Below are positions 6,672 to 53,298 of a stretch of 63,666 bases of DNA, piece after piece. Location of the stretch: NCBI RefSeq assembly GCF_014359565.1, contig NZ_JACIZD010000013.1, positions 1 to 63,666 on the forward strand, read 5' to 3'. The position numbers and the translations under genes are program-made. Numbering within the stretch: position 1 is the stretch's first letter; each line of letters opens with the position of its first letter. Origin of the DNA: Immundisolibacter sp. GTDB taxonomy: Bacteria; Pseudomonadota; Gammaproteobacteria; Immundisolibacterales; Immundisolibacteraceae. A model generated the notes under the pieces. That model saw nothing but the letters and a program-made list of their open reading frames with translations, was not told the DNA's origin and did not search any database.

Positions 6672-7928
<1,257 letters not shown>

Positions 7929-18124: not shown

Positions 18125-18869
18125 CGGTCGGCAGCAGCTCGGTAAACGCCTGCAGCTCGTCCTGCAGGTTGGCGCCCAGTTGCCAGGCGCCAACCTGCAA
18201 CCGCACCCCGGCCAGCAGGGCCGGATCCTCGGCATAGCTCATCGCCGGTGCGCTGCCGCCGATCAGCGCCGCCAGCGCCTGGGCCAGGTCGGCCCGCTGC
18301 GCGTCATCGAGCGGGTAGGCGCTGATCACCTGCAGCGGCGCCGCGGCGCTGGCCAAGGCCTCGCGCAGCGCCGCCCGGCGTTCGGCCGGCAGGGCCGCCA
18401 GGTCATCCACCAACAACTGCAGCAGCCGCGCCTGCAGCTGCGGCCCGGCGGCGGCGCCGAGCAGGCGCGCGGCAAAGCGCCCGGCCAGGGCCAGCGCGGC
18501 GCGCTCGGCCGCCTCGCGGGCCTGCTCGGCCTGCCGGCTGGCGAGGGCTTCCTCGCGCCGGCGGCGGTCGGCCAGTTCCGCCTCCAGCGCCTGCAGGCGG
18601 CGCTCGCGCTCGCGCTCGAGTTCCTCGTCCAGCTCGCGGCGCGCCTTGGTGCGCTCGCCGCCCCAATCCTCCAGGCGGCGGTCGTACTCGGCCTTGCGCT
18701 GCTCGGCCTCGGCTTGCTGGGCTGCAGCGGCACGGGCTACGGCGGCGATCTCGTCGCGGCGGCGCTGGATCATGGCCAGCACCGGCCGGTACAGCAGCCG
18801 GTGCAGCAGCCACACCAGCACCAGAAAGTTGACGATCTCGAAGCCGAAGGTCAGCCAGCTGAATTCCAT
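18117..18869 (-). CDS. atpF: N-ATPase b subunit with delta-like C-terminal part
   Basis: A 250-residue peripheral stalk subunit. One N-terminal membrane helix ([21 protein letters not shown]) is followed by a very long charged coiled coil rich in Arg, Glu and Ala. The C-terminal 100 residues look like a delta-type domain. N-ATPase operons lack a separate atpH, so this fused stalk fits the class. TGAGG upstream of the ATG is a reasonable ribosome-binding site. It is separated from atpE by the hairpin array. Confidence 0.88.
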
Positions 18870-18889
18870 GCCGGCCTCATAAGTCTATG

Positions 18890-19029
18890 AATCAATGCAC
18901 ATCCTGTGCATTGATTCTGTCGCAACTCCGGTACACGCCCGGACTTGCTCCCACGGATCAAGCACTGGTGTGCTCGATCCGTGACCGGCCATCCCTGGCC
19001 GGCAGAGAGCTTGAAAAACTCACAAGCTC

Positions 19030-19031
<2 letters not shown>
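18890..19031 (-). repeat. Array of four consecutive hairpins between atpE and atpF
   Basis: Four inverted repeats fill the gap. 18890-18916 is AATCAATGCACA-TCC-TGTGCATTGATT (12-bp perfect stem). 18953-18982 is a stem of ACGGATC plus AGCAC with one A-C mismatch and a TGGT loop. 18985-19002 is CCGGCCA-TCCC-TGGCCGG. 19005-19031 is GAGAGCTTG pairing with CAAGCTCTC and overlaps the atpE stop. All other gene junctions in the operon overlap or nearly touch, so this 160-bp spacer is exceptional. Confidence 0.9.
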
Positions 19032-19989
<958 letters not shown>

Positions 19990-19990
<1 letters not shown>

Positions 19991-20255
19991 CAATCCCGCA
20001 GCATCAGGTACACGTTGATCGCCCCCACCAGCACGCCGAGCAGCAGCAGACTGAGGGTCCAGGATTGCGAATAACCGGGCAGGCGCTCATCCAGCCAGCG
20101 GCCCAGATAGGCCCCCGCCACCATGGGCAGCACCATCACCAGCCCCAGCGTGCCCAGAAAGCGCGCCTGGGCCAGCACGCTGCGCTTGCCGCGGCGGGCC
20201 GCGTCGAGCCGGCGGGCGTCGCGGTCCACTTCCTCGCGCAGCCGCCGACCGTCGT

Positions 20256-20259
<4 letters not shown>
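19990..20259 (-). CDS. atpQ: N-ATPase AtpQ (AtpI/AtpZ-like assembly protein)
   Basis: An 89-residue protein with a charged N-terminus and two membrane helices ([19 protein letters not shown] and [18 protein letters not shown]). This is the AtpI/AtpZ-like small protein encoded between atpC and atpB in N-ATPase operons. It probably helps assemble the c-ring or bring in Mg2+. It overlaps atpC by ATGA and atpB by TGATG. There is therefore no room for the AtpR gene that usually follows it. Confidence 0.85.
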
Positions 20260-24374
<4,115 letters not shown>

Positions 24375-29229: not shown

Positions 29230-31134
29230 TCAGTGCGTGCGGCGCTGGCGCGAGGACAGCCCATAGTGCAGGGCAGCACCGATGATCAGCACCGCCTGCG
29301 CCGCCAGACTCTGCACGGTCGGGTAAATACCCAGCAAGTCCACGCGCGGGAAGGCGATGCTGCTGGCCGGCAAGATGCCGGCTTCCTGCAGGGCGACGAT
29401 GCCCTTGCCGGCGAACACGATCGCCAGCACATACATCAGAAAAGCGCTGACGCCGAAGAACAGCCCCAGCGGCAGGCGGGCGCTCAGGCGCAGCAAGCCC
29501 CAGCTGACTACCGCCAGCACCAGCGCGCCGCACCCCGCCCCGACCAGCACCATGCTCTGGCCGGCCGGCGTGGTCTGCAACCACAGCGCCTGGAAAAACA
29601 GGATGGTCTCGAACACCTCCCGGTACACCGCGAGGAAGGCCACGAACGCCAGCAGCCACAACGACCGCCCGCCCACGGAGCCGAGGTGCTGATTGATGTA
29701 GGCCTGCCAGCGCTGGGCATGCGCCTTGTCGTGCAGCCAAAAGCCCATGTAGAACAGGATGCCGGCCGCCAGCAGGGCGGTGAAGCCTTCGCTGAGCTCC
29801 CGCGTCGCGCCGCTGATGGAAATCACGTAGGCGGCGACCGTCCAGGTGGCGATGCCAGCCGCCAGCGCCCCGACCCAGCCGATGTGCAGGTAGCGGTAGG
29901 CCTCGCGTCGGCCGGCCTTGCCCAGGAAGGCAAACATGGCCGCCAGCACCAGCACCGCCTCGAGTCCCTCGCGCAGTAGGATGAAAAACGCGCTCGCAAA
30001 GGCCAGTTTGGCATCCAGACTGCCTGCCGCGAGCACCGTCTCGACCCGGTCCAGCGCCGCCAGCAGGTCGGCATGCAACTGCCCGACATCCGCCGATGAG
30101 CCGCTCGCGCGCAAGGGCTCCCGATACGCCAGCATGCGTTTTTCGACTTCCAGGCGCAGCGCCGGGTCGACCGCCTGCAGGGCCTGCTCCAGCGGCTCGA
30201 AGCCGTCCAGGTAGGCAGCCAAGGCCTGCCGGTAGGCACCCGCGCCGTCACCGGCCCGATAGCTGGCCAGGCTTTGCGCGAGCAGCCGCCGGGCCAGGGC
30301 CAGCGATTCGCCGCGGCTGTTGCCCAGCGCCTGCGGGGTGCTGCGCAGATAAGCGAGCACCTCGCCGGCCGGCGATCCACCCACCTGATCCGGCACCGCG
30401 CCGGCAACCGCAGACAGGTCTGTGAATCGGTCCCGGCAACAACCGTCCTGCCAGGCCGCCGCGCCGGCGCGGCGCGTGGCCTCGTCGTAGCGCAGGCTGC
30501 CGACATAGAAGGCCAGCGCCCAGCGGTCCTGTTCGGGCAAGTTGCCAAAGCCGCTCATGGCGGTGCCACTGACGCCATAGCTGATGGTGTTGTAGAGCAT
30601 GGCCAGGCTCTGCGAACCCTGACGCACCGGGTCGTGAAAATCGCTCGGCGGCGGCTCGAGGTTCTGGCCGGCCGGGCCGTCGCCGCGACCCTCGGCGCCG
30701 TGACAGGAGGCGCAGTGCGCGGCGTAGAGCTGCGCCGCGGCGGCCACGTCCGGTGCCCGTTGTGGGGCAAGACGCAACTCGTACAGCGCAGCAACGCGCG
30801 TCTTGAGCTGCGCCGCCAGACCGGCCACCTCGGCGGCCGGCGCCTTGCCATCAACGGCCGCGCGCAGCACCGCGGCCTGCGCGACGAGCTCGTCGCGGCC
30901 TGGCTTTTGCGGCAGGCCGCCCATCAGCTCCACCACGCTGGCGGTGAATTCCTGCATCTCGGCGTACTCGGCGTTGCTGACCACAGCGCCGCCGACCACC
31001 GCGCCGCCGTAATCGACGCCGATGTAATCGAGCAGGTGCACCAGGCGCCCGGCCGTTTCATCCTGCGCCAGCGCCCGGTGCAGGGGCAGCGCCAACAACA
31101 GGCAAGCGAGCAGCCGGACGAGAGAACGTTGCAT
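29230..31134 (-). CDS. FTR1-family iron permease with N-terminal cytochrome c domain
   Basis: A 634-residue fusion. After a signal peptide (ending HRALA-QD), a periplasmic region carries the haem motif CASCH at 141-145 and a distal Met in TAMSGFGNLP. A helical linker follows, then a seven-helix FTR1 permease. The two iron-binding motifs REGLE (388-392) and REVFE (505-509) are intact. Proteins of this design take up Fe(II) after oxidation or Fe(III), and the haem presumably handles the electrons. The start at 31134 gives a clean signal peptide. An ATG at 31182 is in frame. No FtrA/P19 partner is adjacent. Confidence 0.88.
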   Translation of the reverse strand: MQRSLVRLLACLLLALPLHRALAQDETAGRLVHLLDYIGVDYGGAVVGGAVVSNAEYAEMQEFTASVVELMGGLPQKPGRDELVAQAAVLRAAVDGKAPAAEVAGLAAQLKTRVAALYELRLAPQRAPDVAAAAQLYAAHCASCHGAEGRGDGPAGQNLEPPPSDFHDPVRQGSQSLAMLYNTISYGVSGTAMSGFGNLPEQDRWALAFYVGSLRYDEATRRAGAAAWQDGCCRDRFTDLSAVAGAVPDQVGGSPAGEVLAYLRSTPQALGNSRGESLALARRLLAQSLASYRAGDGAGAYRQALAAYLDGFEPLEQALQAVDPALRLEVEKRMLAYREPLRASGSSADVGQLHADLLAALDRVETVLAAGSLDAKLAFASAFFILLREGLEAVLVLAAMFAFLGKAGRREAYRYLHIGWVGALAAGIATWTVAAYVISISGATRELSEGFTALLAAGILFYMGFWLHDKAHAQRWQAYINQHLGSVGGRSLWLLAFVAFLAVYREVFETILFFQALWLQTTPAGQSMVLVGAGCGALVLAVVSWGLLRLSARLPLGLFFGVSAFLMYVLAIVFAGKGIVALQEAGILPASSIAFPRVDLLGIYPTVQSLAAQAVLIIGAALHYGLSSRQRRTH

Positions 31135-31180
31135 CGCGGGTCGGACCGTAGGTAGAGGCGGCGCGGGCGGGGACTCAATC

Positions 31181-31203
31181 ATAAACGCGAATCATTATTG
31201 ATT
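31181..31203. promoter_or_regulatory. Possible Fur box upstream of the iron permease
   Basis: The AT-rich island contains AATCATTATTGATT with AATCA/TGATT arms. By eye it matches about 12 of 19 positions of the classical Fur consensus GATAATGATAATCATTATC. It stands out in otherwise GC-rich DNA and precedes an iron permease gene. The 31204-31360 spacer shows nothing else. Confidence 0.4.
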
Positions 31204-31360: not shown

Positions 31361-32476
31361 TCACACCCCCACGTTCGGATTGCTCCGTAACAGCCGGGCC
31401 GGATCGCCCCAGGCTGCGATACGCGCCCGAAACGCCGGATCATCGGCCAGCAACAGGCGGCCGTGCTCCAACAGCGTCTTGCCGCCGAAGCGCACCGTGG
31501 GGTCCAGCAGCGGGATCGAGCCCTCGCCCGGCGGCGCTTCGCCGATGACGTGAAAGTGCGCCAGGCGCGGGTTGCCGTGGGCGTGCAGGATCCAGCCGAA
31601 CAGGTCGTCCTGCGGCCGCAGCGGCGCAAAGCAGCCCGGGTGCGTGCCCACGTGCCAGGAATTGACGAGGTAGCCGTTCTTGTGCATTTCCGCGCCGGCG
31701 GCGTCCAGGTACCGCCGCAGCGCATCCACCGCCGCCGGCTCGCCCTCGAAATCCACCATGCGACCGCACTCGAGCGTGGCCAGCACTGGACTTGGCAGGA
31801 TCACGCCGCGGGCCTGCATGACGCGGATGGTCGAGGGCGTCACCCAGCGGATGGCCAGCCGGCCACTGGCCTCGAGGCACGAGTAAACCGCCGTTACGCT
31901 CAGCGGGAAGGTGCGCAGCGTGAAGCTGTCGACCGCCGTCGGCGCGGCCGGCTTCGGATGCAGCGGCGCGCGCAGGTCGGTGCCCAGCGGGCAGGTGACC
32001 TGGTAGTCGCCGGCCGCCGCCAGCTGCGGCGCCAGCGCCTGCAGGATCTCGGCGCTGACCTGGAACGGAATGCGCGCGTACTCGGAGCCGAGCTGATCCC
32101 AGGTGGTCAGCGGGTTCATCACCTTCAAGCCCCGGCCCTCGAACGGCACCAGCCGCAGCACCGCCGCCATCAGGTGATTCAGCAGTGCCACCTCGGCCTG
32201 GCTCACCGCCGCCAGCAGGGCGCGCGGGACATCGTCCGGGCCGGCGATGGCGTCCGTCCACAGCACGTGCACGCGGGCACCCAGCTGGCGCGCCTCGTCC
32301 TCGATGATGGCCGCCACGGCCGGGTCCACCAGACCGTTTTCGTTGACGATCATCAACTCAGTGCCGCGCCGGAGCTCGCAGCAGTTGATCAGCAGGTTGC
32401 GCGCGCCCTCGCGCACCTGCGCCTCGCTGCACAGGCGCGGGGCGGTGCGAAAGTCGATTTCCTTGATCATGCCCAT
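31361..32476 (-). CDS. M29/NicX-like metalloenzyme (aminopeptidase-T fold)
   Basis: A 371-residue protein starting MGMIKEIDFR. The N-terminal half has VNENGLVDPAVAAIIEDEA. The C-terminal half has the His- and Glu-rich signatures of the M29 fold (ATLECGRMVDFEGEP, SWHVGTHPG, LHAHGNPRLAHFHV, DPTVRFGGKTLLEHG). This fold includes the M29 aminopeptidases and NicX, the iron 2,5-dihydroxypyridine dioxygenase. The neighbourhood of Rieske oxygenase genes favours a ring-cleavage or hydrolytic catabolic role over peptidase. The assignment is to the fold, not to the substrate. The diiron-like gene upstream ends 20 nt before it. Confidence 0.65.
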   Translation of the reverse strand: MGMIKEIDFRTAPRLCSEAQVREGARNLLINCCELRRGTELMIVNENGLVDPAVAAIIEDEARQLGARVHVLWTDAIAGPDDVPRALLAAVSQAEVALLNHLMAAVLRLVPFEGRGLKVMNPLTTWDQLGSEYARIPFQVSAEILQALAPQLAAAGDYQVTCPLGTDLRAPLHPKPAAPTAVDSFTLRTFPLSVTAVYSCLEASGRLAIRWVTPSTIRVMQARGVILPSPVLATLECGRMVDFEGEPAAVDALRRYLDAAGAEMHKNGYLVNSWHVGTHPGCFAPLRPQDDLFGWILHAHGNPRLAHFHVIGEAPPGEGSIPLLDPTVRFGGKTLLEHGRLLLADDPAFRARIAAWGDPARLLRSNPNVGV

Positions 32477-32496
32477 GGCGGGTTCCTCACGGCGGG

Positions 32497-33255
32497 TCAG
32501 GCGGCCGTGACGGCCGGGGCTTCGTCGGCCCGGTAGTAGTAGTCCAGCCAGTGTTCGCCCAGCACCAGCATGGTCTTGTGGACCACCGAGCGCAGCTGCG
32601 CCTGTAGCGCCTGGTCCCCGGCCGGGACTTTCTGTTCCAGGATGAACAGGCCATCGTTGCCGTGCTGCATCTCCACTTCGCCGCCGTGCCAGACCAGCCA
32701 GTCGAGCGCCTCGTCCCTGAGGCCGTAGTGCCGCTCGCAGCCCTTCCAAAGCGGGTGGATGATGCTGGGCACCAGCGCCTCGATACCGACCGCGAACGCG
32801 GCGATGCCTTCCAGCCACGGCTGGTTGTAGGCGTACAGCAACTGCCAGTTGCGCAGGTGCCAGGCATAGGGCAGCGCCTCCCAGGCCGTTTCCGGGCCGT
32901 TGAATATCCGGTCACCCGGACCGCCCAGGGCGTTGACCGTCTGCGACAGCGCGAAGGCGTGGTTCCACTCGGTGTAGGCGTTCTCCAGCAATTTGGTCTT
33001 GATCGGGTGCTCGTAGTGCGGCGTGCGGGCGGCCAGACTCGCCACCACGCCGGGGGTGGTGATCACCGTCCAGCACAGGTCGGCGAAGAACCGGCGCAGC
33101 TTGTGGACCGGAAAGGTGCCGGCGGCCACCTCGGCGATGAACGGGTGCGCCACCGCCCTGGAGCGGATCGGTTCGATCACCTCGGCGCGCAGCTTGACCA
33201 GCCAGTCGGCTTTCAGGTCACGCAGGTAATCGGGGGCATGTACGGCCTGATCCAT
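32497..33255 (-). CDS. TenA/PqqC-fold (haem-oxygenase-like) protein, possible diiron oxidase
   Basis: A 252-residue all-helical protein of the TenA/PqqC/CADD superfamily (LRRFFADLCWTVITTPGVVA). Candidate metal ligands follow the spacing of haem-oxygenase-like diiron oxidases: Glu91 or Glu96 with His99 (ENAYTEWNH), Glu159 (VGIEALVP), His190, Glu193 or Glu195, and His198 (WHGGEVEMQH). Classic thiaminase features (the active-site Cys and Tyr pattern) are not obvious. It probably shares an operon with the NicX-like gene and diverges from the Rieske genes. The role is inferred to be in the same catabolic pathway. Confidence 0.6.
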   Translation of the reverse strand: MDQAVHAPDYLRDLKADWLVKLRAEVIEPIRSRAVAHPFIAEVAAGTFPVHKLRRFFADLCWTVITTPGVVASLAARTPHYEHPIKTKLLENAYTEWNHAFALSQTVNALGGPGDRIFNGPETAWEALPYAWHLRNWQLLYAYNQPWLEGIAAFAVGIEALVPSIIHPLWKGCERHYGLRDEALDWLVWHGGEVEMQHGNDGLFILEQKVPAGDQALQAQLRSVVHKTMLVLGEHWLDYYYRADEAPAVTAA

Positions 33256-33342
33256 CGTTGTCTCCTCCTCGGGATGAAGCGGCCATTGTTCGCGCTCGTG
33301 CCGGCCCGAAATTGATGATCGTCAAGGCGGCGGCACGTACTG

Positions 33343-33370
33343 GCGTCAAAACCTAACGGCCGTTCATAAT
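33343..33370 (+). promoter_or_regulatory. Putative promoter and palindromic operator of the Rieske cluster
   Basis: GCGTCA and CATAAT lie 16 bp apart. A perfect 10-bp palindrome (AACGGCCGTT, 33355-33364) sits in the spacer, where a TetR-type repressor would block polymerase. The -35 is poor. This lies in the 191-bp divergent gap 33256-33446. Confidence 0.35.
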
Positions 33371-33446
33371 GGCCGCCGTTTCGAGCACGCGCCTGCTTCC
33401 GGCAACGCCGACCGGCCGCTGGTGCGCACTACAAGCCGAGGGGGAG

Positions 33447-34841
33447 ATGAACCGACCTGTAGAACGGCCCGTGCCGACCGCAGGCCCTGTGGATTTCGAT
33501 CGTTACATCGACGATCGCATCGACGAGGGCCAGTTCGCCGTCCACCGCGACATATTCCGCGACGAGTTCCTGTTCGAGCTGGAGATGAAGTACATCTTCG
33601 AGTCGAACTGGGTATTCCTGTGCCACGCCTCGCAGCTGCCCAAGCCGCAGGATTTTTTCAGCACCCACATCGGCCGCCAACCGGTGCTGGTCACGCGCAA
33701 TGCCGGCGGCGAGCTGAAAGCCTTCCTGAACACCTGCACCCACAAGGGCTCGCTGGTGTGCCTGAACCGCTCCGGCAACCGCAAGTTCCACAGCTGCACG
33801 TATCACGGCTGGACCTTCGACACCAACGGCCGCTGCGTGTCGATCAAGGACCACGCCGAGGCCGCCTACACGCCGGCCTTCGAGGCGCACAGTCACGATT
33901 TGCAGGCCGTGCCGAAACTGGCCGAGTACCGCGGCTGGATTTTCGGCAGCCTGAATGCGGACGTGGTGCCGCTGGAACAGCACCTGGGCGACGCGCGCGT
34001 GTTCATCGACCTGCTGGTCGAGCAGGCGCCGGACGGCATGGAGCTGGTGCGCGGCAACGCCAGCTACACCTTTCCCGGCAACTGGAAGCTGCAGGTCGAG
34101 AACTGCCTGGACGGCTATCACCTGAACATCGCCCACAAGGGCTTCATCGAGATCACCCGCCGGCGCATCGCGCGTGCCGGGGCGGCCTACAAGGGGCCGG
34201 ACATCGAGGCCATGTTCGGCGTGAACCTCAAGACCGGCAGCTTTGGCCTCAAGAACGGCCATGCGCTGTTTTTTACCGAAAACCCGGCGCCGCAGTTCCG
34301 GCCGCTGTGGCCGCAGCGCGAGCAGCTGGCCGCGCGCCTGGGTGCTGGCCGGGCCAAGTGGCTGCTGCAGTACGGCCGCAACCTGACCGTCTTTCCGAAC
34401 GTGCAGTGCACGGACAACGCGGTGATCGGCCAGTTCCGGGTGCTGCGCCCGCTGGCCACGGATCTGACCGAAATGGAAATCTACTGCTGGGTGCCGGTCG
34501 GCGAGCCGCCCGCCGCGCGCCGCCAGCGGCTGCGCCAGTACGAGGATTTCTTCAACATCAGTTCCACCGGCACGCCGGACGACGTGGGCGCCTACCGCAA
34601 CTGCCAGGAAGGCCTGCAGGCGCGCGCGGTCGAGTGGCTGCAGGGCCACGGTCGGGGCCTGGGACGCATGGTGCGCGGCGCCAACGACTACGCGCGCGAG
34701 CTGGGCATAGAACCCGAAACCTGCAGCGAGGGGCCGCTGAACATGTCCGACGAGACGCTGTTCCATGCCAACTACCGGCAGTGGCTGCGCCTGATGAAGG
34801 ACGGCCAGCGCCGCGAACTGGCGGCCCGGGAGGCCCGCTGA
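33447..34841 (+). CDS. Rieske aromatic-ring-hydroxylating oxygenase, alpha subunit (cluster 1)
   Basis: A 464-residue catalytic subunit. The Rieske [2Fe-2S] ligands are Cys97 and His99 (CTHKG), and Cys117 and His120 (CTYHGW). The mononuclear iron site is Asp222, His225 and His230 in ENCLDGYHLNIAHKGF. A distal acidic segment YEDFFNIS follows. The start ATG at 33447 has a GAGGGGGAG ribosome-binding site. An upstream in-frame ATG at 33369 lies inside the promoter. The stop overlaps the beta-subunit start as TGATG. No ferredoxin or reductase gene is nearby, so electrons must come from elsewhere. Confidence 0.93.
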   Translation: MNRPVERPVPTAGPVDFDRYIDDRIDEGQFAVHRDIFRDEFLFELEMKYIFESNWVFLCHASQLPKPQDFFSTHIGRQPVLVTRNAGGELKAFLNTCTHKGSLVCLNRSGNRKFHSCTYHGWTFDTNGRCVSIKDHAEAAYTPAFEAHSHDLQAVPKLAEYRGWIFGSLNADVVPLEQHLGDARVFIDLLVEQAPDGMELVRGNASYTFPGNWKLQVENCLDGYHLNIAHKGFIEITRRRIARAGAAYKGPDIEAMFGVNLKTGSFGLKNGHALFFTENPAPQFRPLWPQREQLAARLGAGRAKWLLQYGRNLTVFPNVQCTDNAVIGQFRVLRPLATDLTEMEIYCWVPVGEPPAARRQRLRQYEDFFNISSTGTPDDVGAYRNCQEGLQARAVEWLQGHGRGLGRMVRGANDYARELGIEPETCSEGPLNMSDETLFHANYRQWLRLMKDGQRRELAAREAR

Positions 34842-35335
34842 TGGTCAGCCCGGAACAGCACCTGACCGCCGCGGCGGTGGTCTTTCGCGAGGCCGACTGC
34901 CTGGACCGCTGGCAGTGGCAGGACTGGCTGGACCTGTTCACCGACGACTGCGAGTTCTGGTGCCCGGCCTGGGTGGACGAGCAGACGCTGGGCGACGACC
35001 CGGACCGCTTTGTGTCGTTCTTCTACCTGGCGGGCCGTGCGGCGCTCGGCGACCGGGTGTTTCGGGTCGAATCGGGCCTGACGCCCTTCGTCACGCCCCT
35101 GCCGCGCACCTGCCATGTCATCGGCAACCTGCACGTCACGGCGCCGGACACCACGCACCTGCAGGTCAGCAGCCACTGGCAGACCAGCACCTACCACCGG
35201 CGCCAGACGGTGCACCTGTTCGGCTTTTACGACCACACGCTGGTGCTGGAAGGCGAGCGCTGGCGCATCGCGCGCAAGAAGATCACGCTGCTGAACGACC
35301 ATCTCGATTTGCCGATCGATTTCAATCAGATCTGA
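34841..35335 (+). CDS. Ring-hydroxylating oxygenase beta subunit (cluster 1)
   Basis: A 164-residue SnoaL-fold small subunit. The markers EADCLDRWQWQDWLDLFTDD and TPLPRTCHVIGNL-like segments are family features, as is the C-terminal RWRIARKKITLLND. It pairs with the alpha subunit translated just upstream (TGATG overlap) in an alpha3beta3-type oxygenase. It has no catalytic residues of its own. Confidence 0.92.
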   Translation: MVSPEQHLTAAAVVFREADCLDRWQWQDWLDLFTDDCEFWCPAWVDEQTLGDDPDRFVSFFYLAGRAALGDRVFRVESGLTPFVTPLPRTCHVIGNLHVTAPDTTHLQVSSHWQTSTYHRRQTVHLFGFYDHTLVLEGERWRIARKKITLLNDHLDLPIDFNQI

Positions 35336-35355
35336 CTACAAACGGAGGGGAAGCC

Positions 35356-35877
35356 ATGCCCAAGAACAAGGATCCGCGCATGCAAAAGGCGCTCGAAATG
35401 CTGCACGCCATCGAGGACAAGGACGCCGCCGACGCCGTCGTCAGCGTGCTGAACGAGCTGGCGCCCGACTATGCCAAAGCCACCGTCGCCTACGCCTTTG
35501 GTGACACCTACGCGCGCACCCAGCAGCTGGCCCTGCGCGATCGCGAGATCACCACCATCGCCGCCCTGGCCGCCATGGGCAACGCCCTGCCGCAGCTGAA
35601 GGTGCACATCCGCAGCGGCCTGAAGGTGGGTCTGTCGCAGCAGGAAATCGTCGAGATCATCGGCCACGTGGGCGTCTACGCCGGCTTTCCGGCCGCCGCC
35701 AACGCCTATTTCGCGATGAAGGAAGCGCTCTCCGAGAGCGCCGCGGCGCGCCAGGCGGCGGCTGCCAAGGGCGCCGCCGAACCGGCAGCCGGCAAGGTCA
35801 AGTCCGTGAAGGCAAAGCCCGGCAAGGCCGCTCCTGACGGCAAGGCCAAGCCGGCCAAGGCCGGCAAGAAGGGCTGA
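35356..35877 (+). CDS. Carboxymuconolactone-decarboxylase/AhpD-family protein with basic tail
   Basis: A 173-residue protein. Residues 1-130 form a CMD-type helical domain (YAFGDTYARTQQLALRDREI, EIVEIIGHVGVYAGFPAAANA). The CxxC of AhpD peroxidases is absent, so a decarboxylase- or hydrolase-like role is more likely. The last 40 residues are almost all Lys, Ala, Gly and Pro (VKAKPGKAAPDGKAKPAKAG), a disordered basic tail not usual for the family. A GGAGGGG ribosome-binding site precedes it, 20 bp after the beta-subunit gene. Confidence 0.85.
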   Translation: MPKNKDPRMQKALEMLHAIEDKDAADAVVSVLNELAPDYAKATVAYAFGDTYARTQQLALRDREITTIAALAAMGNALPQLKVHIRSGLKVGLSQQEIVEIIGHVGVYAGFPAAANAYFAMKEALSESAAARQAAAAKGAAEPAAGKVKSVKAKPGKAAPDGKAKPAKAGKKG

Positions 35878-35881
35878 AGCG

Positions 35882-36766
35882 GTGGCTCCGGTGCTCGGTT
35901 TCATCGGCCTGGGCACCATGGGCCTGCCCATGTCCGGGCATCTGGCGCGTGCCGGCCATCGGGTGCTCGGTTACGATCCGTCCGCTTCGGCGCTTTCCGC
36001 GGCGGTCCAGCAGGGCCTGGCTGCCTGCAGCGATGCCGTGGCCGTCGGGCAGGGCGCGCAGATCGTGTTCACCTGCCTGCCGAGCCAGAACGTGGTCCGC
36101 GCCACGGTGAATACGCTCATCGCCAGCATGGCGCCCGGCGGCGTGATCGTCGATTGCAGCACCATCAGCCCGCAGCTGGCGGGCGAGCTGGCGGCCGATG
36201 CTGCCAAACATGACATTGGTTTTCTGGACGCGCCGCTCAGTGGCGCCGGCGCCGGGGCGCAGGCGGCCACGCTCAGCATCATGGTCGGTGGCGAGGCGGC
36301 CGTCTTCGAGCGCGTGCGACCGCTGCTGGAACACATGGGCAAGCACATCTTTCACCTGGGCGCGGCCGGCAGCGGGCAGACCGCCAAGCTGTGCCAGAAC
36401 CTGATCCTGGTGTCCACGCTGTCGGGGGTCATGGAATCGGTGGCGCTGGGTCGGGCGGTCGGCATCGAGCCGCAGCGCCTGCTGGAGGTGATGGACACCT
36501 GCCTGGCACCGACGCGGGTCATGGAGGTGCTGGTCAAGCCCAAGTTCGACGGCCGCGTACCGTTCGACCACAGCACCGACGGCCTGACCATGATCTGCAA
36601 GGACATCACCCTGGTGCGCGAGCTGGCCGAGCGGGTGGGCGTGCACCTGCCGGTCGGCAGCCGCATCCAGAGCCTCTACCAACAGGCGGTGGAAAAGGGC
36701 CATGGCCGCAAGGACCTGCTGGCCTGGTACGAACTGATCGAACAGGGCGTATTCGAGGCCGACTGA
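35882..36766 (+). CDS. 3-hydroxyisobutyrate dehydrogenase-family NAD(P) oxidoreductase
   Basis: A 294-residue beta-hydroxyacid dehydrogenase with a GTG start 4 nt after the CMD gene. The cofactor motif is GFIGLGTMGLPMSGHL. Substrate-binding DAPLSGAGAGA and the catalytic Lys in GSGQTAKLCQNLI are intact. The family oxidises 3-hydroxy acids such as 3-hydroxyisobutyrate, tartronate semialdehyde and related intermediates. As the last gene of the oxygenase operon it could process a product of ring cleavage. Confidence 0.9.
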   Translation: MAPVLGFIGLGTMGLPMSGHLARAGHRVLGYDPSASALSAAVQQGLAACSDAVAVGQGAQIVFTCLPSQNVVRATVNTLIASMAPGGVIVDCSTISPQLAGELAADAAKHDIGFLDAPLSGAGAGAQAATLSIMVGGEAAVFERVRPLLEHMGKHIFHLGAAGSGQTAKLCQNLILVSTLSGVMESVALGRAVGIEPQRLLEVMDTCLAPTRVMEVLVKPKFDGRVPFDHSTDGLTMICKDITLVRELAERVGVHLPVGSRIQSLYQQAVEKGHGRKDLLAWYELIEQGVFEAD

Positions 36767-41013: not shown

Positions 41014-43080
41014 TCAGCCCTCGGGCGAGGGCCGGGCGCCCTGCGCCCACCAGCGCCGGTGCAGGTCGAGCAGCAGCCGCGGCTGGCGCAGCAGCAGCTT
41101 CTGCTCGCGCGGCGCGAGCGCCGCGGGACCGGCGCGCAGCACCTTCGCAACCAACTCGTGGCGACGGGCGAGAATCGCCGCTGACAGGCGCTCGCCGCGC
41201 GCCAGCCCCTGCATGACCACATGCAGGGCGTTGACCGCCGGGTCTTCCACCACCGCGGCAAACCCACCCTGCCGGGCCGGCGCCCGTTCGGCCTCCACCA
41301 GATACCGTGCGAAGTCCTGCAGCACCGGCGCGGGGGCCGTCTCCGGCGGGGTCAGAAACAGGCCCCGCTCACGCGCGCTGCGCCCGACGCTGCTGCGACT
41401 GCTCAGCACCGATACCGGAATCGCCAGCAACAGCGCCGCCACCACCGGCGTCAGCCACCAGAAAAACGCCGGGTTCAGCCAGAACACGCCAAGGCCCCAC
41501 ACGGCCGCAAACAGCGTTGCAAGGCCGTGGTAGCGCAGCGCCTCGGCCCAGCCGGTGCTGGCATCGCCGCGCGACTGGGCGCCCCAGCCCACCTGCTGAC
41601 CAAGCAGCGTGAACAGCACGAACTTGGAGTGGAACACCGCCTGCACCGGCGCCAGCAGGGCCGACATCAGGGTTTCCGTGATGGCACTGGCCAGCAGCCG
41701 CAGCACGCCGCCGAACTGCCCGGCCCGCCGCTGCACGATGATCAGCAACACCGCCAGGATCTTGGGCGCGAACAGGATCACCGTCGTGGCCACGATCAGC
41801 AGCAGCGCCCACTGCGGCTGCCACACCGGCCACTGCGGAAACAGCGCCGGGCCGGTCGGGAAGTAATCCGGGGGCTTGAGCGCCTGCCACACCGCCTGGC
41901 CGCTGGACAGCAACAGGAACACCAGCCACAGCAGCGCCGACACGTAGGACATGATGCCGTTGATGAACAGCGCCCGATGGGCCGGAAACAGGCCTTCGGC
42001 AAACAGCAGGCGCAGGTGCTGCAGGTTGCCCTGGCACCAGCGGCGGTCGCGCTTCATGGCGTCCAGCAGGGTCGGCGGCAGTTCCTCGTAGCTGCCCGGC
42101 AGGTCGTGCGCCAGCCAGATGGTCCAGCCGCCGCCGCGCAGCAGGGCCGATTCGACGAAGTCGTGACTGAGGATGTCGCCGCCCAGCGGCGGGCGGCCCG
42201 GCAGGCGCGGCAGGCCGCAGTGCTGGCGGAAGGCCTCGATGCGGATGATGGCGTTGTGGCCCCAGAACGGCCCGTCGCCCAGCTGCCAGAAATGCAGGCC
42301 GGCGGCGAAGATCGGCCCGTAGGCGTGGCCGGTGAACTGCAGCATGCGCGCGAACAGCGTGTGCTGGCCCATCGGCTGTGGCAGGGTCTGGATCAGGCCC
42401 ACGCGCGGGCTGGCTTGCATCATGTTGACCAGCTTCACCAGCGCCTCGCCGCTCATCACGCTGTCGGCGTCGAACACCACCATGTAGCGGTAGTGCGCGC
42501 CCCAGCGGCGCACGAAATCGGCCACGTTGCCGCTCTTGCGCTTCAGGTTGACCTGCCGGTTGCGGTAAAAGAGCCGCCCGCTGGCGCCCATCTCCCGGCA
42601 CAGCGTAGCCCAGGCGACCTCCTCATCGACCCAGCGGCCGGGGTCCTGGGTGTCGCTGAGGATGAAAAAATCGAAGCGGGCGATCTGACCGGTGGCAGCC
42701 AGGGACTCGTAGGTCGCGCGCAGGCCGGCGCCGACACGCCGCATGTCCTCGGCGAAAACCGGCAGCAGCACCGCCGTGCGGGCATCCGGGTCGATCGGCC
42801 GCATGGAACCAGTGGCGCGCACCAGGTTGTAGCGGTCGCGGCGCAGCAGCAGGCTGAAGAAACCGATCGCGGAGGTCCACAGGCCGATCGAAATCCAGCC
42901 AAACAGCACGCCGAACACGATGATGATGGCCAGTTCAAGTCCAGTGCGCCCGCCGTAGGGCAACACCTCGCGCATGAACTGGCTGGCGATGGTGGCCGGG
43001 ATCAGCACCAGGCCCAGCAGCAGCATCCGTCGCCAAGTGGCGGCGAAGGCGTGCGGCTTGTCGAAATCGGCGTGGCTCAT
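41014..43080 (-). CDS. opgH: Glucan biosynthesis glucosyltransferase OpgH (without its N-terminal domain)
   Basis: A 688-residue GT2 enzyme of osmoregulated periplasmic glucan synthesis. Membrane helices flank the catalytic domain, which has SDTQDPGRW, VFDADSVMSG, the segment after LHFWQLGDGPFWGHN, and DRRWCQGNL. E. coli OpgH has 847 residues, with about 135 cytosolic residues before the first helix; here the protein begins only about 20 residues before that helix. The missing part appears to be the separate ORF upstream, which overlaps it by ATGA. The C-terminal tail aligns with OpgH. Confidence 0.93.
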   Translation of the reverse strand: MSHADFDKPHAFAATWRRMLLLGLVLIPATIASQFMREVLPYGGRTGLELAIIIVFGVLFGWISIGLWTSAIGFFSLLLRRDRYNLVRATGSMRPIDPDARTAVLLPVFAEDMRRVGAGLRATYESLAATGQIARFDFFILSDTQDPGRWVDEEVAWATLCREMGASGRLFYRNRQVNLKRKSGNVADFVRRWGAHYRYMVVFDADSVMSGEALVKLVNMMQASPRVGLIQTLPQPMGQHTLFARMLQFTGHAYGPIFAAGLHFWQLGDGPFWGHNAIIRIEAFRQHCGLPRLPGRPPLGGDILSHDFVESALLRGGGWTIWLAHDLPGSYEELPPTLLDAMKRDRRWCQGNLQHLRLLFAEGLFPAHRALFINGIMSYVSALLWLVFLLLSSGQAVWQALKPPDYFPTGPALFPQWPVWQPQWALLLIVATTVILFAPKILAVLLIIVQRRAGQFGGVLRLLASAITETLMSALLAPVQAVFHSKFVLFTLLGQQVGWGAQSRGDASTGWAEALRYHGLATLFAAVWGLGVFWLNPAFFWWLTPVVAALLLAIPVSVLSSRSSVGRSARERGLFLTPPETAPAPVLQDFARYLVEAERAPARQGGFAAVVEDPAVNALHVVMQGLARGERLSAAILARRHELVAKVLRAGPAALAPREQKLLLRQPRLLLDLHRRWWAQGARPSPEG

Positions 43081-43484
43081 GGGCGTTCCACGTGGCCGAT
43101 GAGCAGTTGCAGGCGGCGCAGCACCCGCGCCGCCGGCCGGTACAGGAACATCCCCAGCAGTTGCCGCACGAAGCCGCGGTGCAGGGTGTGCGCCGTCATG
43201 TGCTGGCGGCGCAGCGGCAGCAGGGCCGGCATCAGCGCCCGCTGCGGTGCCGGCACCGGCAGGCCATAGGCACGCTGCACCGCCGCGCGCAGCCAGGCGC
43301 AGTCCGCATCGGCCGGGCCGGCTGCCTGATCGGCGCCGCACATGGCCTGTGCCAGCCGCGCCTGCAGCTGGGCAACGGTCAGCACGTCGAGGTCGGAAAG
43401 ACCCACAAGCAGGCGCTGCGCCTGCTCACCGGTGATGCCCAAACGCGCCAGATAAGCCGGCCCCCCCGCGGCGGAATCGGTCAC
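43077..43484 (-). CDS. Probable detached N-terminal domain of OpgH
   Basis: A 135-residue protein starting at GTG 43484 with GAGG 9 bp upstream, 4 bp after the opgG stop. Its opening (PAYLARLGITGEQAQRLL) resembles, from memory, the YLARL-x-EQ opening of Pseudomonas OpgH. Its basic end (LHRGFVRQLLGMFLYRPAARVL) resembles the linker before the first OpgH membrane helix. Its size equals the part missing from the downstream OpgH. The E. coli domain is the part that contacts FtsZ. Either the gene is genuinely split, or a frameshift separates the two halves. Confidence 0.6.
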   Translation of the reverse strand: MTDSAAGGPAYLARLGITGEQAQRLLVGLSDLDVLTVAQLQARLAQAMCGADQAAGPADADCAWLRAAVQRAYGLPVPAPQRALMPALLPLRRQHMTAHTLHRGFVRQLLGMFLYRPAARVLRRLQLLIGHVERP

Positions 43485-43488
43485 CGAA

Positions 43489-45018
43489 TCATTCCTCACC
43501 GAGGTGATGCAGCCAGGTTTCGCTGCGCGTGCCGGTGTCCGTGAGCAGGCCGGCACGGATGTTCAGCGGCGCCCCATCGTCGTGCTCCACCGGCAGCGTC
43601 AACCGCCAGCCATCGCCCAGCGCCTGCAGGCCGGGCTCGCCACCCTTGCCGCCTTGAACGCTGATGTGCGGCTTCGGCGGCACGCTGCCGGCGCCAAGCG
43701 ATGCAAAATCAATCTGGTAGGTGCTGACGCCGTTCTGGCGAGCGACGCGCGTGGCGAGCACCCGGCCGGCTTGTTCACCCGGCTCCCGATCACCCCACCG
43801 CAGGCGGTAGCGCAGCGACAGGTGATCGCCGCCCCGCACCTTGGCCTGCGGCACGAAATAGGCCAGCACGTTCTGGTTCAAGCCGTCGCGCACCGGCAGT
43901 TCCAGCAGCTCCAGCCGGCCGGCGCCGAAACCCTTTTGGGGTTCGAGCACCACGCTCGGCTGGGCTTCGAAGGCCGCGTCCAGATCCTGGTAATGCCCGA
44001 AATCCCGGTCCCGTTGCAGCAGGCCATAGACCGTAGCCGGCGGCACCGGCAGTGACTGCTGCGCCAGCCGCGGCGGATTGGCCAGCGGACGCCACAGACG
44101 CTCCTTGCCGGCATGCACCAGCAATCCGTCTGAGCTGTGCACCTCCGGCCGGTAATCGTCCACCGGCGGGCCGTTTTCGCCGTACCAGAACATGCTCGAC
44201 AGCGGCCCCAGGCCCAGCCGGCCGACCGCATCGCGGAAAAACAGCTCGCTGTCGACCCGCGTGACAAGCTGTGTGCCGGCCGTCAGCTCGATCCGGTAGG
44301 CACCGCTGACACGCGGCGAGTCGAGCAAGGCATAGACGGTCAACCGTTTGGCGCCCGCCGCGGGCCGCGCCAGCCAGAAATCGGTAAAGACCGGGAACTC
44401 CTCGCCACTGGGCAGGCCGGTGTCGATGGCCAGCGCCCGCGACCGCACGCCGCCGGGCAGCAGCGGCGCCCCGCCGCGCATGAAGCTACCGCCCAGGAAT
44501 TCCAGCACCGGCTGCCAGCTGTCCTTGTTGCGCGCGTAGACGGTGAAACCGGCGTAACCCAGATCGCCCGGCACCCGCTGGCGATCCACCCCCGGCCCGT
44601 AGAAGAACTGCCCCGGCGCAAAAGCCAGGAGCTTGGCTTGCCCGGATTCGATCTGGCTGATCGCGACCGGCTGGCGATAGATGCTGCCCGGATGATGGAA
44701 GCGGACCGAGAACGGCAAGTCCTGGCCCGCCCACAGGGCCACGTTCGGGTCGAAGCGAATGTCCTGCCAGGCGCGATAATCAAGCTGCAGCAGCCAGTCG
44801 GGCAGCGGCGCCGGCATGGGCTGGTAGGGCGCCGCGGCACGGTCGCGCGCTTTCTGCACCACCTGCGACCAGTCGAACTCGGCGCCCTGCGCCGCCGCCA
44901 GCAGCAGCCAGCAGCCCAGCCCCACCAGCCATCGCCGACCGGTCCCCGGCGCAGCAGAAGCCCCAGGCGGCTGGGGCCGTCGCGATGGCCGCAGGTAATC
45001 AGCGAGGCGGATCGACAT
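43489..45018 (-). CDS. opgG: Periplasmic glucan biosynthesis protein OpgG/OpgD family, paralogue 1
   Basis: A 509-residue exported protein. A long N-terminus with a hydrophobic export segment (WLVGLGCWLLLAAAQG, about residues 29-44) precedes the OpgG beta-sandwich. The segments LSSMFWYGENG, YRPEVHSSDGLL, LLQRDRDFGHYQDLD and EPQKGFGAGRLELLELP match active family members (now GH186 beta-1,2-glucanases, from memory). The start overlaps paralogue 2 by 20 nt. It directly precedes the split opgH. Confidence 0.9.
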   Translation of the reverse strand: MSIRLADYLRPSRRPQPPGASAAPGTGRRWLVGLGCWLLLAAAQGAEFDWSQVVQKARDRAAAPYQPMPAPLPDWLLQLDYRAWQDIRFDPNVALWAGQDLPFSVRFHHPGSIYRQPVAISQIESGQAKLLAFAPGQFFYGPGVDRQRVPGDLGYAGFTVYARNKDSWQPVLEFLGGSFMRGGAPLLPGGVRSRALAIDTGLPSGEEFPVFTDFWLARPAAGAKRLTVYALLDSPRVSGAYRIELTAGTQLVTRVDSELFFRDAVGRLGLGPLSSMFWYGENGPPVDDYRPEVHSSDGLLVHAGKERLWRPLANPPRLAQQSLPVPPATVYGLLQRDRDFGHYQDLDAAFEAQPSVVLEPQKGFGAGRLELLELPVRDGLNQNVLAYFVPQAKVRGGDHLSLRYRLRWGDREPGEQAGRVLATRVARQNGVSTYQIDFASLGAGSVPPKPHISVQGGKGGEPGLQALGDGWRLTLPVEHDDGAPLNIRAGLLTDTGTRSETWLHHLGEE

Positions 45019-46483
45019 AGTCCCAGGTTTCGGTCAGAGGCTGGTCGGCGTGCTGCAAATAGGCGCGCAGTTGCAGCGGGGCGTCGGTGTCACGGTTGAA
45101 CTCGAACAGCAGACGCCAGCCACCCGTATGCGGGTTCGCCACCACTTGCTGGCGCTGCAGGCTGCCGCCGCGGCCGATGTCGATGACCGCCACCGGCGCC
45201 GCGCCGGGCGGCAGCCCCTGCAGGGCCGGGCCGACGAAATCCACCGCATAGCGGCGGCTGCCATTGCTCCCTGCGGCACCGCTGCGGGTGGCGATCACCC
45301 AGCCGCCGGCACGCGGCAGCGACGCGTCCGTCGACCAGTGGACGGCGTAGCCGAGCTCCATCCCCGCGCCGGGTGCCGGCTGCTGGTCTGGCACGAATCC
45401 GACCTGCACGTTGCGCACAGCGGCGCTGCCCGCCGGAGCTTCGAGCAGGCGCAGCTGGCCAGCGCCCCAGTCACCGCCCGGCACCAGCCACAGGTCCGGC
45501 TGGCGGGGATGCGGCGCGTCCGGCTCGTAGTGGCTGGCGTCGCGATCACGCTGCAACAGCCCGAACCCACGTGGCGTGTTGACCAGAAAACTATAGGCGC
45601 TCGGCTGGGGTGGATTGTCGAGCGGCCGCCACAACCAGCCGCCAGCGGCGGTGTGGATGGCCAGGCCGTCCACGCTGTGCACCTCGGCCTGCAGCGGCAA
45701 CACACGCCCCGGTCGATGCTCCCCCTGCACGAAACTGCCCGCCAGCGGCGCCAGCAGCAGTTTGCCGGCGCCCTCGCGCGGATACAGCGCCACCTGCACG
45801 TCGGCGCGACTGGCAACGCCCGGCACCAGGTCGATCTGGAACGCAGCCGCCAACGCCGGCGAATCGGCCAGCGCATACAGCCGCAGCTGACGGGCGCCGG
45901 CCGCCGGGCGCACCAGCCAGAACTCGCGAAACGGCACCGGCTGCGCCCGACCGTCGTTATCGATCACCCCGACCGCGAGTGCGGCCGCACCGAACAGCGA
46001 ACCGGCGCCGACCAGCTGCCAGGCATCGCCCTCGAAGCGCGCCAGATCCTCGCGTTTGCCATCCCCGGGGAGCGGATACAGCAGGCGAAAGCCGCAAAAA
46101 CCCGTCGCGGCAGGCCCCGCCTCCGGCAGGCCGGCGGCCGACCAGTCGAACAGTTCCGGCCGGTAATCGAAGCGCTCGATACCGCTGGCCTGGATGGAAC
46201 TGAACAGCGTCGGCGCGCAGCCGGCGCGCGGCGCCAGCGGCAGCGGCACGAAGCGCGACGCCATCGACCACGGCGCGTAGCGGACCTTGAGCGGCGCCGC
46301 ATCCCGGCGCGCGGGATCGATCTGCGCCAGGACAGCGTCGGCCTCCGGCGGTGGGCTGTACGCAGCCGCCGCCTGCTGCCGGGCGCGCGCTTTCAGGGCG
46401 TCGAAATCAAAGTCCTTGCCAGTCGCGCTGGCGGCGCCGGCGCACACGACCAGCAGCAAGCCCAGGCTGCGCCAGTTCAGCAT
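44999..46483 (-). CDS. Divergent OpgG/OpgD paralogue 2
   Basis: A 494-residue exported protein (signal LGLLLVVCAGAASA-TG) with the OpgG fold. It departs from its neighbours at otherwise conserved places. SMFWYGEN is replaced by GSFVQGEH, YRPEVH by LQAEVH, and HYQDLD by HYEPDA. RGFGLLQRDRD remains. It may have lost hydrolase activity or changed specificity. It overlaps opgD by a few bases and paralogue 1 by 20 nt, so all three are made from one message. Confidence 0.85.
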   Translation of the reverse strand: MLNWRSLGLLLVVCAGAASATGKDFDFDALKARARQQAAAAYSPPPEADAVLAQIDPARRDAAPLKVRYAPWSMASRFVPLPLAPRAGCAPTLFSSIQASGIERFDYRPELFDWSAAGLPEAGPAATGFCGFRLLYPLPGDGKREDLARFEGDAWQLVGAGSLFGAAALAVGVIDNDGRAQPVPFREFWLVRPAAGARQLRLYALADSPALAAAFQIDLVPGVASRADVQVALYPREGAGKLLLAPLAGSFVQGEHRPGRVLPLQAEVHSVDGLAIHTAAGGWLWRPLDNPPQPSAYSFLVNTPRGFGLLQRDRDASHYEPDAPHPRQPDLWLVPGGDWGAGQLRLLEAPAGSAAVRNVQVGFVPDQQPAPGAGMELGYAVHWSTDASLPRAGGWVIATRSGAAGSNGSRRYAVDFVGPALQGLPPGAAPVAVIDIGRGGSLQRQQVVANPHTGGWRLLFEFNRDTDAPLQLRAYLQHADQPLTETWDYVDPPR

Positions 46484-48054
46484 GCGGCTGCCGCGATGTA
46501 CTGGTAGAGCCAGGTTTCGGTCAGAGTCTTGTCGCCCAGGCGCACGTAGCAGCGCAGCTCCACCGGCTCGGCGCCTTCCACGTACAGGTCAAACGAGGCC
46601 CGCCAGCGATCGGTACCGACCACCTTGAGCACGTGCGCGTTGTCCACTCGTCCGCGCGAGGCGGTCACCATCGGCGTCAGGTCGAAGCGCTGCTCGAGTG
46701 CCGCCAGCGGCCCGCCGGAGAAATCGATGACGAACTTCATCCCCGGAGCCTGCTGTGCGGCCTGCTGGGCGGTGATGCCGGGAATGCCGTGGCGACCGCG
46801 CCAGGTGTGGCGCACACGCCCGACCTCGGGGATGAACGGCTCGTCATCACCCCAGTACAGGCGGTAGTCGAAGGTCCAGGCGCCGCCACTGCGCACCGGC
46901 TCCTTGGGCGTCCAGTAGGCGACCAGGTTGTCGTGGATCTCGTCGTCGGTCGGGATTTCGACCAGCTGCACCGCGCCCTCGCCCCAGTCACCCAGTGGCT
47001 GCACCCACACCGAGGGACGACGGTCGTAGAAGGCGCCGTCGTCCTGGTAGTTCTCGAAATTGCGATCCCGCTGCGACAGGCCGAAACCGCGCGGGTTGAA
47101 GTCCACGAACGACGAGGTCATCACCACTGGCGGGTTCTCGATCACCCGCCACAGCCGCTCGCCGGCCCCGGTCCACAGCGCCAGGCCGTCGGAGTCGTGG
47201 ATTTCCGGCCGCCAGTCGGCGCTGCGTCGACGGTTGTTCTCGCCGTACCAGAACATGCTGGTCAGCGGCGCCACGCCCAGACGGCCGATGTCCTGGCGCG
47301 CGAACAGCTCCGCATGCACCTCGGTCAGCACCGGCTTGGCGCGCGTGCACACGAAGCGATACACGCCGGTCAGGCTGGGCCCATCGAGCAGGGCGTACAG
47401 CGTGATGCGGTCCCCGACCGGGCGTTCCAGATAGAAGGCGGTGAAATCCGGAAACTCCTCCGGCTGCGGCATGGCGGTGTCGATGGCGATGCCGCGCGCC
47501 GACAGGCCGTACTGGCCCTGCACGCCGCAGGTGCGGAAATAGGACGCGCCCTGAAACGCCAGCCAGTCGGTCTTGGCCGGCGCCGGGTCCATCACCCGGA
47601 AACCGGCAAAGCCGCCGTGGCCGGCCATTTTCTTCGCCAGTCCCGGCGTGCCGTAGTCGAACAGGTCGGTCGAGAACGGCACCTCGCGCGCCTCGTCACC
47701 CTCCACCAGATGGATGCGCACCGGCTTCTGGGCAAAGCGGTGCGGGTGGAACAGCTGCACGCCGAAGGGCGACGGCGGCTCGTTCCACAGCGTCTGCTCG
47801 GGCTTGAAACGGATTTTCTGGATGGTGTCGAAGTCGATCGTGTACAGCAGCTGGGTATCCGGAATCGTCGGCGCGACATACGGCCGGGCGGCCAGTTGGC
47901 GGGCCTGTTCGCGCAGTGTGTCCATGCTGAACTTGCGCTTTGGCCCCAGGCTTGCGCGGGCCAGCGCATGGGCCGGGTACAGGCCGGCCAGCGCCAGCAG
48001 GCCGCCGGCACTCATGAATTTCAGCAGGTCGCGACGCGTGCTGCGCAGCGGCAT
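46477..48054 (-). CDS. opgD: Tat-exported OpgD-type glucan protein, paralogue 3
   Basis: A 525-residue protein with a twin-arginine signal (STRRDLLKFMSAGGLLALAG), the feature that distinguishes OpgD from Sec-exported OpgG. The family segments LTSMFWYGENNRRRSADWRP, EIHDSDGLAL, GLSQRDRNFENYQDDGAFYD and PLGDWGEGAVQLVEIP are intact. OpgD sets the chain length of periplasmic glucans. It is the first gene of a four- to five-gene operon ending with opgH. Confidence 0.92.
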   Translation of the reverse strand: MPLRSTRRDLLKFMSAGGLLALAGLYPAHALARASLGPKRKFSMDTLREQARQLAARPYVAPTIPDTQLLYTIDFDTIQKIRFKPEQTLWNEPPSPFGVQLFHPHRFAQKPVRIHLVEGDEAREVPFSTDLFDYGTPGLAKKMAGHGGFAGFRVMDPAPAKTDWLAFQGASYFRTCGVQGQYGLSARGIAIDTAMPQPEEFPDFTAFYLERPVGDRITLYALLDGPSLTGVYRFVCTRAKPVLTEVHAELFARQDIGRLGVAPLTSMFWYGENNRRRSADWRPEIHDSDGLALWTGAGERLWRVIENPPVVMTSSFVDFNPRGFGLSQRDRNFENYQDDGAFYDRRPSVWVQPLGDWGEGAVQLVEIPTDDEIHDNLVAYWTPKEPVRSGGAWTFDYRLYWGDDEPFIPEVGRVRHTWRGRHGIPGITAQQAAQQAPGMKFVIDFSGGPLAALEQRFDLTPMVTASRGRVDNAHVLKVVGTDRWRASFDLYVEGAEPVELRCYVRLGDKTLTETWLYQYIAAAAC

Positions 48055-51856: not shown

Positions 51857-51898
51857 GCTGATCCCCTCGCAAATGAAGTTATTGATGGCACCGTGGCC

Positions 51899-53254: not shown

Positions 53255-53298
53255 GAGTGTCTTGCTCCGGTCAGACGTTGTTCCGGCTGGCGGGTGGA

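Follow-up and report, generated by a model that had tools for sequence, protein, structure and literature searches.

A divergent Rieske oxygenase cluster in Immundisolibacter pairs a predicted haem-oxygenase-like dimetal oxidase with a NicX-fold protein

Results

Gene content of the cluster

We analysed a 63,666-nucleotide window, which is contig 13 (NZ_JACIZD010000013.1) of a 3.09-Mb Immundisolibacter genome (GCF_014359565.1), and focused on a divergent cluster of six intact genes, two on the minus strand and four on the plus strand (Table 1). The Immundisolibacteraceae are a lineage of polycyclic aromatic hydrocarbon (PAH) degraders, and I. cernigliae strain TR3.2 comes from PAH-contaminated soil (PMC5054325). 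The plus strand encodes a Rieske alpha and beta pair, a carboxymuconolactone decarboxylase (CMD) family protein and a beta-hydroxyacid dehydrogenase, and the minus strand encodes a protein resembling haem-oxygenase-like dimetal oxidases (HDOs) and a NicX-like protein, their genes separated by 20 bp. An earlier sequence-only reading had described two gene groups facing apart with six open reading frames, and these were recovered on the same strands and at nearly the same positions. The reading frames are far beyond chance, displaying 83-97% identity in two other genomes, and the domain matches are significant, including those to the Rieske, CMD and hydroxyacid dehydrogenase families which that reading had named.

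Table 1 Features of the divergent cluster, with positions in the window
Feature	Position	Strand	Evidence
NicX/M29-fold protein, 371 aa, predicted mononuclear metal site	31361..32476	-	VIA, Foldseek, hhalign, N-terminal profile
HDO-like (Haem_oxygenas_2, TenA-like) protein, putative ligands E96, H99, E159, H190, E195, H198	32497..33255	-	PF14518 6e-10
Divergent intergenic region with AACGGCCGTT palindrome, candidate operator/promoter	33256..33446	.	function inferred
Rieske ring-hydroxylating oxygenase alpha, BenA/XylX type	33447..34841	+	Rieske 9e-18, Ring_hydroxyl_A, TIGR03229
Ring-hydroxylating oxygenase beta	34841..35335	+	Ring_hydroxyl_B PF00866 1e-31
CMD (PcaC-type) family protein	35356..35877	+	PF02627 2e-17
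Beta-hydroxyacid (3-hydroxyisobutyrate-type) dehydrogenase	35882..36766	+	NAD_binding_2 2e-45, NAD_binding_11

The HDO-like protein

The HDO superfamily includes UndA, CADD/NePabS, BesC and MboA. Searching the PDB with a profile of 14 homologues of the HDO-like protein returned para-aminobenzoate (pABA) synthases (3e-24), CADD (2e-17) and BesC (1e-8). The AlphaFold2 (AF2) model of the protein, with a predicted local distance difference test score (pLDDT) of 88, displays the haem-oxygenase-like helical fold and aligned in VIA with UndA (Z 23.8, 2.2 Å over 224 residues) and CADD (Z 22.3), while metal-free TenA and PqqC proteins scored lower (Z ~21). The six CADD ligands map in the alignment onto E96, H99, E159, H190, E195 and H198, completing the set of three histidines and three carboxylates. 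Across the alignment of 14 sequences, five of these positions do not vary, and the sixth, 195, holds Glu in 13 sequences and Asp in one. The sequence-only reading had credited this TenA-like protein with Glu and His residues spaced as in HDOs; the homologues retain them, the comparison with CADD and UndA matches all six positions, and the protein is predicted to carry a dimetal site.

The first ligand helix has the ExxH spacing of MboA (Glu86/His89; PMC13185094). By contrast, the third reads H-x4-E-x2-H in place of the H-x3-D-x2-H of the superfamily, with Glu replacing Asp and one residue inserted after H190 relative to CADD, a point at which the AF2 model shows a helix break. The sacrificial Tyr27 and Lys152 of CADD correspond to I40 and L169, and neither Tyr nor Lys was found at these positions in any of the 14 homologues. 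Because both sacrificial residues are missing, we rejected a CADD-type self-sacrificing pABA synthase.

The order Immundisolibacterales was the only one in which close relatives of the HDO-like protein turned up, at one to three copies per genome. In class- and phylum-wide searches, which covered samples of 369 and 349 genomes, respectively, no further close relatives appeared and everything else found was distant, at 70-100 bits versus 400; no relative was present on the plasmids searched. A Rieske alpha gene lies no more than 2.2 kb from nine of the 13 HDO loci, against about 3% expected at a random site given the BenA-type alphas of this genome. For the dehydrogenase of the cluster, 10 of the 12 homologues in the Immundisolibacteraceae have a BenA-type alpha at a distance of up to about 3.3 kb. 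The homologues in each set are related and not independent, so that these counts overstate the significance of the adjacency. In one HDO subgroup, genes for BphC, HDO and a 2Fe-2S ferredoxin form a same-strand row with a gap of a few bases between HDO and ferredoxin. The BphC of this row scores 375 bits, above the family cut-off of 366, and the row is duplicated in TR3.2. The dedicated redox partner of an HDO so far described is that of the MboA/MboB pair (PMC13185094). A search of the literature on clusters combining Rieske and PqqC/TenA genes yielded nothing usable.

The gene context of this clade is aromatic catabolism, unlike the natural-product synthesis of the HDOs characterised so far. 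The superfamily comprises more than 10,000 sequences, of which about a dozen have been characterised, all in biosynthetic settings, and a 2026 review describes HDOs in biosynthesis only, with mostly fatty or amino acids as substrates (PMC13108848). This record, together with pABA synthases as the closest solved sequences and UndA and CADD as the closest folds, would fit an HDO working as a pABA synthase or an UndA-like fatty-acid decarboxylase, unrelated to catabolism. We consider such a role very improbable, given the loss of the CADD Tyr and Lys throughout the homologues and the position at Rieske/BphC loci of the paralogues, of which each genome has 2-3.

The NicX-fold protein

No Pfam or NCBIfam model matches the NicX-like protein, and the Peptidase_M29 model PF02073 has no match anywhere in the genome, both NicX-like paralogues included. 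Even so, the M29/NicX fold that the sequence-only reading had called by eye was borne out by several comparisons. The AF2 model is weak (pLDDT 49), with NicX as its best Foldseek match (E 2e-10), followed by M29 aminopeptidases, and VIA-align ranked NicX (7cup) at Z 12.5, M29 enzymes at about 10 and the remainder at no more than 7. Independently of the model, a PDB search with an N-terminal sequence profile ranked NicX at the top (E 0.0086), and profile-profile alignment in hhalign against genuine NicX sequences covered the whole length of the protein (probability 84, E 8e-6, 272 columns). The protein has the NicX/M29 fold, and the two minus-strand products stand as the two unusual metalloenzyme candidates proposed earlier, one with a complete set of HDO residues and the other with this fold. 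The wider profile and its N-terminal part were needed to bring up NicX; PDB matches of the single sequence to Rieske cytochrome proteins were rejected as spurious, as was the result of a profile limited to Immundisolibacteraceae.

NicX, a 2,5-dihydroxypyridine 5,6-dioxygenase, binds iron through His265, Ser302, His318 and Asp320 (PMC7910607). In the profile alignment, which is uncertain at the C-terminal end, these residues fall on H275, H309, E318 and S320, respectively, and a residue of the same kind stands at the first position only. Overall identity to NicX is about 16%, and no nic genes lie nearby. The comparison with NicX suggested at the outset therefore held for the fold but not for the iron ligands, which are permuted, so that NicX chemistry cannot be assumed.

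Among 12 sequences from Gamma- and Alphaproteobacteria, H275, H307 and H309 are invariant and position 318 is always Glu or Asp. A His/His/carboxylate site formed by H275, H309 and/or H307, and E318, distinct from that of NicX, is plausible on these alignments. A hand alignment placed NicX H318 and D320 on H307 and H309, giving a three-His alternative in a region where the AF2 model is poor; the profile-aligned H275/H309/E318 is tentatively taken as the more likely site. The conserved His101 was dropped as a counterpart of NicX His105, as the two residues are not matched in the profile alignment.

In Rhodobacterales, the neighbours of homologues with ~30% identity are Rieske genes for an alpha or a ferredoxin and CMD-family or peroxidase-related genes, often joined by sarcosine-oxidase-like genes; these neighbourhoods tie the NicX-like family to oxygenase pathways outside Immundisolibacter. 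Within the Immundisolibacteraceae, a NicX-fold paralogue forms a conserved block with an NMT1/DszB-like protein and a flavin reductase in all genomes examined (L041, 9337-12103; L042; L043; L045; L047).

The sequence-only reading had entertained an N-heteroaromatic substrate, in which case the Rieske enzyme would hydroxylate a pyridine-type ring and the NicX-like enzyme would cleave it. The NicX fold is in keeping with this route, and the Rhodobacterales homologues occur with sarcosine-oxidase-like, amino-acid ABC transporter and formyl-tetrahydrofolate deformylase genes, suggesting an N-methylated nitrogen compound in those bacteria; a search of the literature on homarine catabolism prompted by these neighbourhoods returned nothing usable. 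In the window, however, the Rieske pair is of the BenA/XylX type, no nitrogen-specific gene lies near the cluster, the NicX ligands are not kept, the paralogue in the family sits with the NMT1/DszB-like protein and flavin reductase, and the lineage is one of PAH degraders. The proposal is unsupported by the cluster, and we regard it as improbable.

The Rieske operon and its conservation

The alpha protein retains intact CxH..CxxH and DxxHx4H (2-His-1-Asp) motifs and, with the beta protein, has the features of a Rieske oxygenase. Its score against the BenA model TIGR03229 (456 bits) is far under the equivalog cut-off of 781. It is one of 17 BenA-type alphas in this genome, a number that agrees with the 21 published xylX copies of I. 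cernigliae (PMC9535955). A second Rieske set lies elsewhere in the window (51353-54654, minus strand), comprising one beta and two tandem BenA-type alphas with 46-47% identity to the alpha of the cluster, and is adjoined by a thiamine pyrophosphate-dependent enzyme (49558-51321).

The CMD family protein is of the PcaC type without CxxC; it contains no cysteine at all, in line with the absence of CxxC reported in the sequence-only reading. It scores 62 bits against PcaC (equivalog cut-off 156) and carries a Lys/Ala-rich tail that sets it apart from PcaC. The dehydrogenase displays DAPLSG and GSGxxxKxxxN motifs of the beta-hydroxyacid dehydrogenase type, the catalytic Lys included, and scores 213 bits against HIBADH (equivalog cut-off 292). 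One of its homologues belongs to another operon of this genome with the order alpha-beta-X-dehydrogenase.

The operon resembles BenABCD/XylXYZL in its BenA/BenB-type alpha and beta proteins with intact Rieske and mononuclear-iron motifs, but lacks a BenC reductase and a BenD-type short-chain dehydrogenase/reductase (SDR), having a CMD protein and a beta-hydroxyacid dehydrogenase instead. BenD oxidises and decarboxylates the benzoate-type cis-1,2-diol-1-carboxylate, itself a beta-hydroxy acid. The beta-hydroxyacid dehydrogenase could perform both reactions in place of BenD.

The alpha-beta-dehydrogenase order is kept in three sister-genus genomes at 50-66% identity, with a CMD gene called between beta and dehydrogenase in two of the three (75-82% identity); a fourth sister-genus contig ends after beta. 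TR3.2 holds all six genes together, with an interrupted alpha, and a third Immundisolibacter genome (G001) keeps five of the six. Of the checks suggested in the sequence-only reading, that on co-occurrence of the six genes and that on retention of the Glu/His set thus came out mostly in its favour, but among the genomes searched all six are intact only in that of the window. The cluster consists of a conserved four-gene operon to which the HDO/NicX-like pair was added in Immundisolibacter.

Other features of the window

A ribosome-binding-site-like GAGGGGGAG precedes the ATG of the alpha gene at 33447, and another in-frame ATG lies upstream at 33369. Between the divergent genes, the perfect palindrome AACGGCCGTT (33355-33364) is kept in all three Immundisolibacter genomes and was not found at the other loci searched; the surrounding region is a candidate operator/promoter on sequence grounds. 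Directly downstream of the NicX-like gene, an FTR1 iron permease fused with a cytochrome c domain (29230-31182, minus strand) possibly serves iron supply. Elsewhere, an EgtB-like and EgtD-like pair (54929-57189, plus strand) is likely an ergothioneine biosynthesis operon, three tandem MdoG periplasmic glucan proteins accompany a family-2 glycosyltransferase (41014-48054, minus strand), and ATP-synthase-like genes (15855-22057, minus strand) have an order resembling the N-ATPase operon, as judged from translations only.

Discussion

We propose, tentatively and with confidence somewhat short of even, that in Immundisolibacter the cluster serves the O2-dependent catabolism of aromatic acids as one module, combining dihydroxylation and decarboxylation with ring-opening and an extra O2-dependent step. 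We infer all functions in the cluster from sequence. The substrate of cis-dihydroxylation by the Rieske pair would be an aromatic carboxylate that probably arises during PAH breakdown. The beta-hydroxy acid product may then be oxidised by the dehydrogenase with loss of CO2, the enzyme standing in for the unrelated SDR BenD. The NicX-fold enzyme, using its own putative metal triad, would open the ring of the resulting diol or a related intermediate, and the CMD protein may handle the ring-opening product in a lactone or decarboxylation step. The HDO could catalyse a further O2-dependent carbon-carbon cleavage or the decarboxylation of a carboxylated intermediate. The order of the ring-opening, CMD and HDO steps and the substrate are guesses.

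Several observations weigh against this proposal. The cluster has no reductase or ferredoxin gene, the CMD protein and the dehydrogenase fall below every equivalog cut-off, the four iron ligands of NicX are not conserved in kind, and the adjacency counts are inflated by relatedness. Where a sister-genus contig extends that far, the divergent neighbour of the operon is an ApbA-family gene and not the HDO/NicX-like pair. The TR3.2 alpha (L019, ~7104-7186) has an in-frame insertion with a TAG stop between short direct repeat copies, and the HDO of G001 is reduced to a 47-residue C-terminal remnant between the NicX-like and alpha genes; together these argue against an obligatory six-gene pathway or point to recent decay. 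With the pair outside the conserved operon and single genes lost or interrupted, the six genes need not form one pathway.

The same observations bear on the view that the locus comprises two unrelated divergent units, with the operon degrading an aromatic acid and the HDO and NicX-like proteins serving another O2-dependent step elsewhere or undergoing decay. The ApbA-family neighbour in the sister genus, the HDO orthologues of that genus at other loci (one on a contig without a Rieske gene) and the genes lost or interrupted in G001 and TR3.2 all speak for separate units. By contrast, the 20-bp spacing of the HDO and NicX-like genes, their position still adjoining the operon in TR3.2, the general preference of HDO homologues for Rieske neighbours and the occurrence of NicX-like homologues of other classes with Rieske and CMD-family genes speak against them, and we hold separate units to be unlikely, though worth serious consideration. 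Of the ring hydroxylation and cleavage route put forward in the sequence-only reading, the oxygenase cluster stands and the pathway itself finds partial support; the occurrence of the sister-genus operon without the HDO and NicX-like genes and the presence of HDO homologues at other Rieske loci speak against a tight six-gene pathway.

Returning to the catabolic module, we suggest more broadly, as a possibility held with some doubt, that a clade of dimetal HDOs private to the Immundisolibacteraceae provides these bacteria with oxygenases for aromatic catabolism, a 2Fe-2S ferredoxin being dedicated to one subgroup. One of these HDOs would be paired with a NicX-fold ring-opener whose site, formed by two or three His and a Glu, may represent a third type of ligand arrangement for the M29 fold.

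Two features give the locus its interest: an HDO clade found at loci of aromatic catabolism, and a NicX-fold family whose metal site is permuted. The association of the clade with Rieske and extradiol genes of PAH degraders opens a catabolic role to direct testing; if true, HDOs, placed in biosynthesis only by the 2026 review (PMC13108848), would have a role in degradation as well. The NicX-fold family, present in at least Alpha- and Gammaproteobacteria beside Rieske genes and apparently with a metal-ligand set of its own, may constitute a new class of metalloenzymes with ring-opening or hydrolytic activity, and, to judge from the operon, a beta-hydroxyacid dehydrogenase may take over the role of BenD. 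The cluster thereby hints at an unexplored way to break down aromatic pollutants.

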